64,000 bases of DNA from Nitrosomonas halophila (GTDB taxonomy: Bacteria; Pseudomonadota; Gammaproteobacteria; Burkholderiales; Nitrosomonadaceae), in NCBI RefSeq assembly GCF_900107165.1, contig NZ_FNOY01000007.1, positions 1 to 64,000 of the forward strand. Direction: 5' to 3'. Below, piece after piece: positions 38,408-42,782 of the stretch (its first letter is position 1; the number at the start of each line of letters is the position of its first letter). The notes below the pieces were generated by a model, which saw only the letters and a program-made list of their open reading frames with translations, made no database searches and was not told the DNA's origin. A program made the position numbers and the translations under genes.

Positions 38408-39327
38408 TCAGTCAAGAAACTGCGCCCGCTGTCCCGCCCCTGCCGCACATCTCAAAACTGGTCATCATTGGCGTAGGGCTGATCGGCGGTTCATTTGCCC
38501 TGGCCCTGCGCCAGGCCGGCCTTGTTGAACATGTCCTGGGGATTGGACGCAGTCCCGAAAACATGCAGCGTGCGTTGGCACTGGGCGTCATTGATGCATA
38601 CACTGACGACTTCGCTGCTGCTCTGCCAGGGGCCGATTTCGTTTTGCTTGCCGTACCCGTCAGGCAAACCGCTCATATCATGTCCAACATGGCGCCCTAT
38701 CTTGATACCAATACCATTGTCTCGGATGTCGGCAGCACCAAACAACATGTGGTACTGGCCGCCCGCGCCCACTTGCATGCACACCTAGACCGGTTCATAC
38801 CTGCACATCCGATTGCGGGCACAGAGTTCAGTGGTGCACAGGCAGCCGACCCAAATCTGTTTCGTAACAAACCGCTCATTCTGACTCCCTTGCCGGAAAA
38901 CAGTCCGCAAGCACTCGCTTTCGTAGAGGCCCTATGGCAGCACTGCGGCGCGAAAATCTCACACCTGCCAGTCGAGCGGCATGATCAGATTCTTGCTGCG
39001 ATCAGCCATCTCCCGCATATGCTGGCGTTCACGCTGATGCAGCATATCCGTACCCTGGGTGGAAATGATCCGATGGCACTCTTGCGTCTCGCAGGCACCA
39101 GTCTGGATGATATGACGCGTATTGCCGGCAGTTCACCGGAAATGTGGCGCGATATCTGCCAAGACAATCGTGCAGCATTGCTGGCCCAAATCGAGGCCTA
39201 TCAGGCTCAACTCTCAAACCTCCATCAAATGCTGGCCCAACATGATGACCAGACGCTGGAGCGGCTATTTGCCGAAGCACGGGAAACCCGCAGGCATTGG
39301 CTTGAGACTAAAAACCAGTCCCCCTAG
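38404..39327 (+). CDS. tyrA: Prephenate dehydrogenase
   Basis: TyrA oxidatively decarboxylates prephenate to hydroxyphenylpyruvate for tyrosine. The 307-residue protein has the NAD motif [19 protein letters not shown], the core motif [12 protein letters not shown], the catalytic His region [16 protein letters not shown] and H.PHMLAFTL. It starts with TTG at 38404, overlapping hisC by 4 nt. Its TAG stop is the last three bases of the CTAG target of an inserted palindromic element. In related genomes aroA, cmk and rpsA commonly follow; here the operon ends at the insertion. Confidence 0.95.
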
Positions 39328-39720
39328 GAGGCTGTCCGAGAATAGCGATCGTAGCGAGGGCGAAGATGGCTGAGTGGGATTTTTCGATCATTAGGGCTCG
39401 TTAATGAATAACTTGAGCATACGCTGGGGTCGCTTTTGGCGCAGACCAAGGCGCAAGACACGCCGTTGTGTCATTCACAACAAGTGGCTTGCAACGCCGG
39501 TATGCGCCAAAAGCGACCCCAGCCCGAAGGGTTGTTGCGTATTCGGGCATCTGCGGCGTTGCGAGGCTTGCATCTTTCCCGAATACGTAACAACGTATAT
39601 CCAAGTTATTCATTAACGAGCCCTAAGAGGCGAATAGTGGTTCTATTCAACGAAAAGAATCGAAAAATCCAGCCTGGCAGGTTCGTCCGCAGTAGATCAG
39701 TCTCTCGGACAGCCTCCTGG
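39324..39720 (+). mobile_element. 159-bp family palindromic element, copy B, split by a second element
   Basis: The element runs from GAGGCTGTCC (39328) to GGACAGCCTC (39716). The left target CTAG (39324-39327) contains the tyrA stop codon; the right one reads CTGG (39717-39720), one base changed. The copy is interrupted at 39392-39625 by the 230-bp TA-flanked element and has lost four bases near its right end. Its outer halves match copies A and C closely and are in the same orientation. Together with the nested element it fills the 442-nt gap between tyrA and rfbA. Confidence 0.88.
39392..39625 (+). mobile_element. 230-bp TA-flanked element with three-stem palindromic structure, nested in copy B
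   Basis: The element (39394-39623) has terminal inverted repeats beginning GGGCTCGTTAATGAATAACTT, with the right arm its exact complement. TA occurs on each side (39392-39393, 39624-39625), a target typical of IS630/Tc1-like elements. Inside, arms 39424-39443 and 39503-39522 pair perfectly over 20 bp. Arms 39531-39547 and 39578-39594 pair over 17 bp with one mismatch. The whole would fold as two hairpins on a closed base. No transposase is encoded. An isolated end of this family lies at 3243-3277. Confidence 0.85.
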
Positions 39721-39769: not shown

Positions 39770-40693
39770 TCACAAAGCAGCTTGCCTGAGGATCCTCAAT
39801 AGATACTGCCCATAACCATTTTTGGCCAGAGGCTGGGCAAGCGTTTCCAGTTGCGCCTGATCAATCCACTTATTCCGGTAGGCCACTTCTTCCGGGCAAG
39901 CAATTTTGAGTCCCTGACGACGCTCAATCGTCGCCACAAATTGGCTTGCATCCAGCAACGATTCGTGAGTACCCGTATCCAGCCACGCGTAGCCCCGCCC
40001 CATGATTTCCACGTTGAGCCCACCTTCTGCAAGATACAGCAAATTGATGTCGGTAATCTCCAGCTCGCCGCGCGCGGACGGCTGGAGCGTTCTGGCCATG
40101 CTCACAACATCCTGATCGTAGAAATACAAACCGGTCACCGCATAATTGGATTTAGGGGATTGGGGTTTTTCCTCCAGATTGATCGCATGCCCTGCGCGGT
40201 CAAATTCCACAACGCCGTAGCGTTCCGGGTCATGGACATGATAGGCAAATACACTGGCACCGCTGGTTCGCCGCATGGCACTGCCGAGCAAATGGTGAAA
40301 ATCATGTCCGTAGAAAATATTGTCGCCTAGGATGAGCGCACTCGGATCGTTCCCGATAAATGAAGCACCAATGATGAATGCCTGCGCCAATCCATCAGGC
40401 GAAGGCTGCACGGCATATGAGAGATTAAGCCCCCATTGCTCCCCGTCCCCAAGCAAATTTTCATAACGGGGAATATCTTCGGGTGTCGAAATAATCAGGA
40501 TGTCCCGAATCCCTGCCAGCATCAGTGTGCTGAGCGGATAATACACCATCGGCTTATCAAAGACAGGCAACAATTGCTTGGAAACGACCTGGGTCACTGG
40601 GTAAAGCCGTGTGCCGGAGCCACCCGCGAGAATAATCCCTTTCCTGCTAAAATTGGCAGAAACTTCCCGCCCTGTTTCTGGTTGCTTGATCAT
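39770..40693 (-). CDS. rfbA: Glucose-1-phosphate thymidylyltransferase
   Basis: The enzyme makes dTDP-glucose from dTTP and glucose-1-phosphate, the first step to dTDP-rhamnose for surface polysaccharide. The 307-residue protein has the nucleotide signature [50 protein letters not shown] and LGDNIFYG. About 15 extra residues precede the usual start; a GAGGAT ribosome site supports the ATG at 40693. No rfbB, C or D gene is adjacent. The gene sits alone between two same-orientation copies of the palindromic element. Confidence 0.95.
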
Positions 40694-41120
40694 TTATCCT
40701 CTTGGCAATGCAATTCAAATCCTCTAACCTAGCGAACCGGGCCAAGTCGATGACAGCAAACACACCCGAAATACGTCAGCAAAAGACATGATTCCAGCTG
40801 CACGGCCGATCACAAACCCGGCTAGGAGGCTGTCCGAGAATAGTGATCGTAGCGAGGGCGAAGCTGGCTGAGCGGGATTTTTCGATCATTTGAGGCGAAT
40901 AGTTGTTCTATTCAACGAAAGGGATCGAAAAATCCAGCCTGGCAGGTTCGTCCGCAGTAGATCAGTCTGTTCTTGGACAGCCTCCTAGCGCATGCTGCCC
41001 GGATAATCGCGGCCCCCTTCCAAGCTTCTATTATAAGCCAAGCTGATTATCAGCCGCCCTGTGAGCTGATATAGTTTCATCCATATTTTCTATTTTTGTG
41101 ATCGATATTCTCTCTTACTC
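40694..41120. other. rfbA to ABC-exporter intergenic region
   Basis: This 427-nt gap separates the divergent rfbA and ABC-exporter genes. It contains palindromic element copy C (40822-40988). The remaining parts (40694-40821 and 40989-41120) presumably hold both promoters, but no box pair is clear. Confidence 0.4.
40822..40988 (+). mobile_element. 159-bp palindromic MITE-like element, copy C
   Basis: Element 40826-40984 has the same 10-bp terminal repeats and the same length (159 bp) as copy A. It is flanked by intact CTAG duplications (40822-40825 and 40985-40988). It lies upstream of both rfbA and the ABC exporter, in the same orientation as copy B. Sequence identity to copy A is high by eye over the full length, which suggests recent movement. 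Confidence 0.88.
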
Positions 41121-42782
41121 ATGTCATTCAAGCCATCGACTATCGAAATAGTACCGCTCCGCCGTTTCCTGGCATGGAGCACGCCTTATTGGACATCACT
41201 CATTCCGGCAATCCTCGCCGGCAGTCTGATTGCCCTGGCAGTCTCCTGCATGCCGTTCGTGACCAGCCAGTTATTCATTCATGCCCTGCCCGGCGGTAAT
41301 AAACAATTGCTTCAAGAACTCCCGGTACTATTGACAGTCCTTTTGATAGCAGCCGCCCTTGCCAATCTGGCCAGCCATCACTCACTCTGCCGCATCTGTA
41401 ACCGGCTCGCGCTGGAATTGCGCATGCAATTATTCGAGAAACTATTGGCCCTACCGCATGCCCGGTATGATTTTTCCACCACCACGATTAGTGCACGTTT
41501 CTTCACCGACATGGAAAAATTGTGCCACCTTGCAAGCCGTCTGGGCACCAATCTCTCCCGGGACTTATTGATCTTCATCGGGCTGTCCGCCGTCATGATG
41601 CACCTGAACACGGAAATGGCAGTACTTGTATTTGCCATGCTGATTGCATTATATCTCGTCATTCAGATGTCTCGTGGCAACGCTCACCACCACGGAACAC
41701 GCTCCCAGACGCGGGCAGATCTATCCAGAGCCCTACACAAAGCGATACAACATTTCAGAGCGATACATTTGGATCAGGGCAACCAGCAGGAAAGCCAGCA
41801 TATCCGTGGTCTCCTTGAGCGCTATCAGGATGACATGATGGCGCAGGCACGCCAAATCAGAATCGTTGGGCTATTGGCCATGATGTTGCTAATTGGCATG
41901 CTGACCGCCTTTCTTTACTACCTGATACAGCAACTCACGCTCGGCAAGCTGGCGCTGGATGATGCCGCAGCATTCCTGATGGCCATGCTCTTGCTCGTCT
42001 TCCCATTGCTGCGGCTGATCGATCTCAGATCGACAGTGGCTGAATGCAGCCAATTGCTGCGCTCACTGTTCTCCTTGCTGGATCAGCAATCCGGGGTAAT
42101 TTCGGAATCCTCACCATTGTTGCCGACAAACAGGCCCATCAGGGGGAAATTGGAAATCGAAGCGGTCAGCTTCAGAAACAGTGGTCAACGTAAAACGTTA
42201 CCCTCTCTTAGCATCAAACCCGGCAAGAAAATCGGCTTGATTGGTGGTGACAATCCGGTCAAGCGACTGCTGGCTGATCTGGTTTGCGGTTTCATACGCC
42301 CCGAGACTGGAAAAATCCAGCTCGACAATCAAACCATCGGGCGCATGAGCCGGGCGAATTTATATGCGCATATTGCCTGGATCACACCGGATAAAACCCT
42401 ATTGTCCGACACCATGGCCGCTAATATTGCCTACGGCGCAATGCGCTGCAGTACTGAAGCCGCTATCACTGCAGCCGCCCAGGCCAGTCAGGCATCTGAA
42501 TTCATCCGTGAAATGCCGCATGGCTTGCAAACGAAAGTAGATCATCAGGCTGCGCAGCTTTCCGACAACCAGCGCCAGCGTATCCTCATCGCGCGGGCAT
42601 TACTCAAAAACCCCGCAATTGTGATCCTAGATGAAACCCGTGCGTACTTCGACATGAGCTGTCTGGCATTACGTGCCGGTCTGGCAACATTGCTCCGGAA
42701 TCGAACTGCGTTGATCCTGTCTTCACGCCCGGCCATGCTGGCCTTCGCTGATCATGCTTATCGAATCAACCCGAATGCATAG
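41121..42782 (+). CDS. MsbA-like ABC exporter with degenerate nucleotide-binding domain
   Basis: The 553-residue protein has the layout of an MsbA-type half-transporter: about six membrane helices (residues ~20-300) fused to a C-terminal nucleotide-binding domain (~335-550). Most ATPase motifs are altered. The A-loop tyrosine is replaced (NSG), the Walker A position reads GGDNPVKR (375-382, no GKS/T) and the Q-loop glutamine is missing (ITPDKTLL). The signature reads LSDNQ (480-484, normally LSGGQ), and the H-loop histidine is Ser535 (LSSRP). Walker B and its glutamate (VILDE, 501-505) remain. The frame is intact. It could be a pseudo-ATPase with a structural role or a gene in early decay. 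It lies near rfbA, which hints at envelope lipid or polysaccharide work. Confidence 0.85.
   Translation: MSFKPSTIEIVPLRRFLAWSTPYWTSLIPAILAGSLIALAVSCMPFVTSQLFIHALPGGNKQLLQELPVLLTVLLIAAALANLASHHSLCRICNRLALELRMQLFEKLLALPHARYDFSTTTISARFFTDMEKLCHLASRLGTNLSRDLLIFIGLSAVMMHLNTEMAVLVFAMLIALYLVIQMSRGNAHHHGTRSQTRADLSRALHKAIQHFRAIHLDQGNQQESQHIRGLLERYQDDMMAQARQIRIVGLLAMMLLIGMLTAFLYYLIQQLTLGKLALDDAAAFLMAMLLLVFPLLRLIDLRSTVAECSQLLRSLFSLLDQQSGVISESSPLLPTNRPIRGKLEIEAVSFRNSGQRKTLPSLSIKPGKKIGLIGGDNPVKRLLADLVCGFIRPETGKIQLDNQTIGRMSRANLYAHIAWITPDKTLLSDTMAANIAYGAMRCSTEAAITAAAQASQASEFIREMPHGLQTKVDHQAAQLSDNQRQRILIARALLKNPAIVILDETRAYFDMSCLALRAGLATLLRNRTALILSSRPAMLAFADHAYRINPNA

Follow-up and report, generated by a model that had tools for sequence, protein, structure and literature searches.

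Can a lipid flippase be kept by a bacterial family after its ATP site has gone? MsbA, the textbook case of a lipid flippase powered by ATP, normally moves lipid A, which anchors lipopolysaccharide, across the inner membrane, and it is also a drug target. The question is raised by a gene in the first 64,000 nucleotides of contig NZ_FNOY01000007.1 of Nitrosomonas halophila (this whole stretch is called the window below), where an open frame of 553 codons, with its ATG at 41121 and its stop at 42782, encodes an ATP-binding cassette (ABC) exporter. In our view it is practically certain that this gene represents the orthologue of MsbA in the Nitrosomonadaceae and has become a pseudo-ATPase; it is referred to here as the degenerate msbA. 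The fuller statement, in which an ATPase-dead MsbA would act as a lipid-facing, ATP-independent scaffold or adaptor in an envelope free of lipid A, falls somewhat short of an even chance when the role is included.

Both parts of an exporter are recognized in the protein by Pfam (ABC_membrane at residues 36-296 and ABC_tran at residues 362-506). The top NCBIfam model is MsbA (TIGR02203), but the score of 260.6 bits lies far below the cut-off of 602 for a functional MsbA equivalog. The residues expected of a functional MsbA or any ABC ATPase in Walker A, signature, Q-loop and H-loop are lacking as well (Table 1). The initial annotation of this locus had described a nearly complete loss of motifs with Walker B and the membrane part kept, which proved accurate with one nuance: besides D504 and E505 of Walker B, the protein retains K381 (together with the first Gly the only match to the Walker A consensus), Ser and Gln in the signature, and Asp511 of the D-loop. 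A genuine MsbA elsewhere, for which that annotation proposed to search, was not found. No protein of the window's genome exceeds the MsbA cut-off, so a second genuine MsbA is ruled out there, and the count is 0 for all 25 Nitrosomonas genomes scored (the window's own and 24 others) against 14 out of 16 relatives from the same order.

The loss is not a local event. An orthologue was found in 119 of 125 Nitrosomonadaceae genomes, distributed over four genera: 108 matched at E <= 1e-45 and a profile search of the remaining 17 added 11. (The initial motif table covered 101 of the 108; the 7 omitted and the 11 recovered genomes were added later. Contig ends cut three of the 119 genes, L091, L282 and L283, two of them among the 11 added.) The strict Walker A pattern G..G.GK[ST] is present in none of these 119 orthologues, whereas it is present in 66 out of 66 MsbA proteins from outside the family, a contrast that far exceeds chance. 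The latter agree at all 15 tabulated positions (the Walker A hydroxyl position holding either S or T). Local decay or a sequencing error can thus be ruled out, since the losses are common to the whole family. Out of ten key residues, the number kept is 0 in 6 genomes, 1 in 22, 2 in 24, 3 in 36, 4 in 19, 5 in 5, 6 in 4, 7 in 2 and 8 in 1; the signature Gln is still found in 110 of the 119. Genus g27 is the least eroded, with a mean of 4.3 out of ten against 2.1-2.8 elsewhere. When the motif columns are excluded from tree building, parsimony requires 4 to 10 state changes per ATP-motif residue, which suggests that the ATP site was released from selection and then eroded repeatedly and separately. 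Judged from these alignments, the nucleotide site is destroyed piecemeal in different lineages.

Outside the family no degenerate MsbA was seen among the best 80 of 577 confirmed loci from one contig scan. These 80 comprise 66 canonical and 14 degenerate loci, the latter titled Nitrosomonas, Nitrosospira, Nitrosovibrio or Burkholderiales isolate H5_AOB4. Two records of metagenome-assembled genomes among the MsbA relatives (L198 and L206) are titled Bordetella parapertussis, although these titles may be mislabelled.

Orthology is supported by both phylogeny and gene order. The tree comprises 64 proteins, 38 of them from the family, and these 38 group in a single clade nested within MsbA (Shimodaira-Hasegawa-like approximate likelihood ratio test, SH-aLRT, 100). 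Next to it are the MsbA proteins of Gallionella and Nitrotoga and that of one Rhodoferax record (support 88), and the paralogues fall outside. Three genera, g26, g27 and g28, share msbA neighbours with order relatives. Genes for TauE and an EVE-domain protein adjoin msbA in order relative G047 and likewise in g26 and g28, and a convergent wbpM-like gene is common to g27 and order relative G051. A further case concerns order relative G044, where purC..msbA is followed by a heptosyltransferase gene, waaA, pcm and thiC, and g26 locus L146, where purC and the degenerate msbA are followed by tolC, pcm and thiC. At L146 both core genes of lipopolysaccharide (LPS) are gone and the degenerate msbA stayed. 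(Neighbour names, namely rmlA, rmlC, radA, wbpM-like, wecA-like, purC, TauE, EVE, tolC, pcm and thiC, were assigned by eye; checks against Pfam cover the genes next to the degenerate msbA in the window and, at L178, the heptosyltransferase and WaaA.) The gene is thus orthologous to E. coli MsbA (6bpl; the lipid A flippase of TIGR02203), with which it has in common the fold of transmembrane domain (TMD) and nucleotide-binding domain (NBD) and the gene neighbourhood. It differs in its destroyed ATP site, in a C-terminus past the H-loop that is shorter than in canonical MsbA (measured for g1, which is Nitrosomonas, and also for g28), and in the absence of the cargo pathway.

Despite these losses, the protein is under selection, as follows from the ratio of nonsynonymous to synonymous substitution rates (dN/dS, Nei-Gojobori) of 0.14-0.36, with a median of 0.22 over 22 close pairs (picked for closeness and not all independent). 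In the same pairs, where present, medians for neighbouring genes are 0.03 (radA), 0.05 (rmlA), 0.07 (rmlC), 0.06 (wbpM-like) and 0.20 (wecA-like); canonical MsbA has a median of 0.096 (27 of the 40 closest pairs, those with dS <1.2). Constraint is thus approximately halved yet clearly present, in TMD (0.21-0.25) and NBD alike. Nothing indicates a pseudogene: ratios are not near 1, the frame is open in the 119 genomes apart from the three clipped genes, and the single stop flagged in the best matches (G075) is the natural end of the gene, which the match overruns by three codons. The initial annotation had argued from the intact frame against simple decay and had asked for motifs and dN/dS of the orthologues; both results bear out its argument and refute recent decay.

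Selection is unevenly distributed over the NBD. Pooled dN/dS is 0.12 for the helical subdomain and X-loop (residues 429-475) and 0.11 for the helix with Walker B (490-505), against 0.23 for the dead Walker A region and 0.22 for the dead signature region. Conservation of the helical stretch in Nitrosomonas equals that of canonical MsbA (0.74 against 0.76) and its NIAYG motif is nearly invariant. From canonical MsbA to Nitrosomonas, conservation drops from 0.86 to 0.54 in Walker A, from 0.91 to 0.55 in the Q-loop and from 0.88 to 0.44 in the signature. Constraint at the DNA level was ruled out as the reason for the conserved stretch (dS of 0.226 there, 0.238 for the whole gene). In ABC exporters this is where the NBD contacts the coupling helices of the TMD. 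With the helical stretch conserved and the ATP loops not, the TMD-NBD interface appears to be kept and the ATP sandwich abandoned. That a gene stripped of its ATP machinery is retained, intact and selected suggests a new job that would need no fuel.

A likely reason for the loss lies in the lipid A pathway. A search at E 1e-10 found LpxC in 0 of the 125 genomes of the family (a control set without order relatives was positive in 4 out of 14, among them E. coli). LpxB is found in 0 of 22 family genomes against 3 out of 3 order relatives, and WaaA in 0 of 22 against 5 out of 5. With these three missing, lipid A is apparently not made via the known route, and the cargo of a functional MsbA is lacking in the window's genome and in the family. 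The absences agree with PMC3087551, in the available portion of which, of nine genes for Kdo2-lipid A, N. europaea has lpxK alone and Nitrosospira multiformis lpxA alone; that portion does not mention MsbA. For two species the lack of the pathway had already been published. The family-wide loss of the ATP site, which goes beyond the initial annotation, accompanies the loss of lipid A synthesis, and the missing pathway is likely its cause. LptF/G and LptD are each present in 22 of 22 family genomes, including that of the window (G000; C116, C79). Since Lpt is kept without LpxC, LpxB and WaaA, the Lpt bridge presumably carries a cargo other than lipid A.

Positions which we take to be lipid A contacts in E. 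coli MsbA (R78 and K299) are kept to varying degrees. The R78 position is Arg in 23/23 members of g27, 8/8 of g28 and 58/82 of g1; the K299 position is Lys or Arg in 21/23, 8/8 and 36/82, respectively. In the window protein these positions are Ala and Leu.

A second protein of the lost pathway may have followed a similar course. LpxK (TIGR00682) is found in 82 of 85 Nitrosomonas genomes and in 0 of 40 from the other three genera. All 23 Nitrosomonas LpxK proteins examined out of these 82 have Asp in place of the first P-loop Gly and no intact Gly pair: compared with GNIAVGGTGKT (gammaproteobacterial LpxK L233, encoded beside a canonical msbA), they read, for example, DSITVEDSGKT, or DSLTAGSATKA in the window's genome (L319). 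Lys-Thr still closes the loop in 17 of the 23, and dN/dS is 0.10-0.17 in seven pairs. Like the degenerate MsbA, it has a P-loop with an eroded Walker A, stems from the lost lipid A pathway and is kept under selection; unlike the degenerate MsbA, LpxK belongs to a kinase family instead of being a transporter, is confined to Nitrosomonas and often keeps Lys-Thr. The kinase activity may have been lost, but this is only a lead because the comparison is with one canonical LpxK. A fused C-terminal Trm112 domain was observed in both Nitrosomonas LpxK proteins scanned.

As to the mechanism, we suppose that the degenerate MsbA would fold as an MsbA-like dimer that does not cycle ATP. A subunit without Walker A and signature would leave no complete ATP site in a homodimer, nor in a heterodimer with a canonical partner. 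In this view the intracellular loops would be capped structurally by the NBD. The TMD, facing the lipids, would work without ATP as a scaffold or adaptor in the pathway for envelope lipids that took the place of lipid A, and the most plausible site is next to the Lpt machine, which is kept. Motif loss, orthology and selection are established; that the protein has no ATPase activity, forms a dimer, handles a lipid and is linked to Lpt is what we infer. A lipid-binding scaffold, the other option of the initial annotation, may be correct. More speculatively, the ancestor of the ammonia-oxidising Nitrosomonadaceae might have lost lipid A and kept Lpt for another lipid, while MsbA (and in Nitrosomonas perhaps also LpxK) became a pseudoenzyme that needs no nucleotide and that handles or gates this lipid ahead of Lpt; we give this scenario a limited chance.

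Several observations weigh against the scaffold reading. Constraint is relaxed, with dN/dS roughly double the canonical value (0.22 against 0.096). Partial ATP sites survive: one member (L097) keeps eight of the ten key residues, one (L108) alone among the 119 keeps a loose GxxxxGKT, the signature pattern [ST]GGQ is matched in 6 and an H-loop-like pattern in 21, and the Walker B Glu is retained in 99. Residual nucleotide binding is therefore possible in some members. Six of the 125 genomes (G072, G003, G019, G062, G063 and G148) yielded paralogue-level matches only; all six assemblies consist of more than 100 contigs, and G019 and G062 are over 90% complete. The tree was built with a quick method without bootstrap, with several degenerate rows flagged for odd composition and a long branch for L118. 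Across Nitrosomonas the gene occurs in several contexts, none of them seen as an lpt operon, and the specific role near Lpt, be it scaffold or adaptor, is what we infer.

The closest rival holds that the protein is a passive, ATP-independent translocator or loading factor for a lipid A substitute, such as a phosphosphingolipid, which it passes on to Lpt. Lpt is indeed kept in all 22 genomes and the TMD is constrained. Furthermore, N. eutropha is reported (PMC11324152) to possess good orthologues for at least 13 of the 17 genes that make up the phosphosphingolipid region of Caulobacter, but none for CC_1166, a potential flippase. ATP-free selective transport is unproven for the MsbA fold, though, and we give this explanation a limited but real chance.

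Somewhat less probable is a slowly dying relic, in which residual selection acts only against toxic misfolding in the membrane. The doubled dN/dS, the separate erosion of the ATP motifs and the six genomes without orthologue (though all six assemblies are fragmented) would fit. Nonetheless the gene is kept in 119 genomes over four genera with no premature stop flagged among the best matches, and the low dN/dS of the helical subdomain and near-invariant NIAYG are hard to explain through avoidance of toxicity.

The initial annotation also offered a pseudo-ATPase half-transporter pairing with an active partner. Its first half, a selected pseudo-ATPase, is supported; the pairing is not. Degenerate sites are common among heterodimeric exporters (excerpts of PMC7756269), and a canonical MsbA-related exporter that might hydrolyse ATP as the other half is encoded in the genome (TIGR02204, on C134; 832.6 bits against a cut-off of 780.4). 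It was one of the own-genome exporters scanned, next to one of the PrtD type and two below every cut-off shown. TAP1/2, TM287/288 and TmrAB resemble the degenerate MsbA in that they, too, are folded ABC exporters under selection whose ATP motifs are non-canonical. They differ in combining one degenerate with one canonical composite site (same excerpts), whereas the degenerate MsbA, the sole MsbA copy, lacks both Walker A and signature. As it would contribute neither half, each composite site would miss an essential part and no complete one could form, which makes the pairing unlikely. Moreover, MsbA-like paralogues also occur in order relatives having a working MsbA, and no second ABC gene recurs in the approximately 6 kb flanks examined. 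We rate this explanation as doubtful, below the relic. A quite improbable sensor or regulator of envelope glycan synthesis (a pseudo-ATPase signalling partner) is hinted at by the rmlA cluster (63), wbpM-like (61) and wecA-like (59) genes among 104 loci, but the wbpM-like gene already flanks canonical msbA in order relative L179, so that the linkage looks inherited, and all three genes are absent beside the degenerate msbA in N. eutropha-like L066 and L071.

Searches of an open-access library yielded no published report of a kept, ATP-dead MsbA or of an eroded LpxK P-loop. A family important to the nitrogen cycle seems to keep MsbA in the long term without ATPase motifs or cargo, which provides a natural experiment on an ATP-free ABC exporter fold. 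Lpt genes can apparently persist without lipid A genes, and the cargo of Lpt in LPS-less bacteria becomes a testable question in culturable organisms such as Nitrosomonas eutropha.

In the flanks of the window gene the only neighbour in common is rmlA, and this is shared with other Nitrosomonas. Flanks vary within that genus, mostly with rmlA upstream as in the window and with other genes in the N. eutropha-like group.

Table 1. Location of the degenerate msbA, its domains and motif positions, the neighbouring gene and the eroded LpxK (window positions unless a genome and contig are given).
Feature	Position	Strand	Remarks
Pseudo-ATPase MsbA orthologue, 553 aa	41121..42782	+	Scans, tree, synteny
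Transmembrane domain, residues ~11-320	41151..42080	+	Helical in both AlphaFold models
A-loop position	42177..42179	+	Tyr to Asn353
Former Walker A, residues 375-382	42243..42266	+	GGDNPVKR
Q-loop position	42387..42389	+	Gln to Pro423
Helical subdomain / X-loop, residues 429-475	42405..42545	+	Constraint kept (NIAYG, GLQT), dN/dS 0.12
Former signature, residues 480-484	42558..42572	+	LSDNQ
Walker B, residues 499-505	42615..42635	+	AIVILDE, retained
H-loop position	42723..42725	+	His to Ser535
Nucleotidyltransferase (rmlA by eye; Pfam NTP_transferase), divergent neighbour	39770..40693	-	Cluster in 63/104 loci
Eroded LpxK of the window's genome (L319)	G000:C100:28110-28991		Other 22 loci: L165-L167, L320-L338

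The genome also encodes a second degenerate ABC exporter of 553 aa (G000:C82:96958-98619, minus strand; L172:6959-8620), adjoining HlyD-like and outer-membrane efflux genes. Its Walker A is intact (GADGSGKSK), its signature, Walker B and H-loop are non-canonical, and it has no family at 1e-60.

Finally, a palindromic element of approximately 165 bp is located at window positions 40822-40988, about 130 bp upstream of the start of the degenerate msbA. The element occurs at 40 places in the genome with 93-100% identity (40 of 139 candidates scored). Another copy, at 39324-39703, is split by an insertion of roughly 235 bp that bears 36-nt inverted arms; this arrangement looks like nested elements of the miniature inverted-repeat transposable element (MITE) type.
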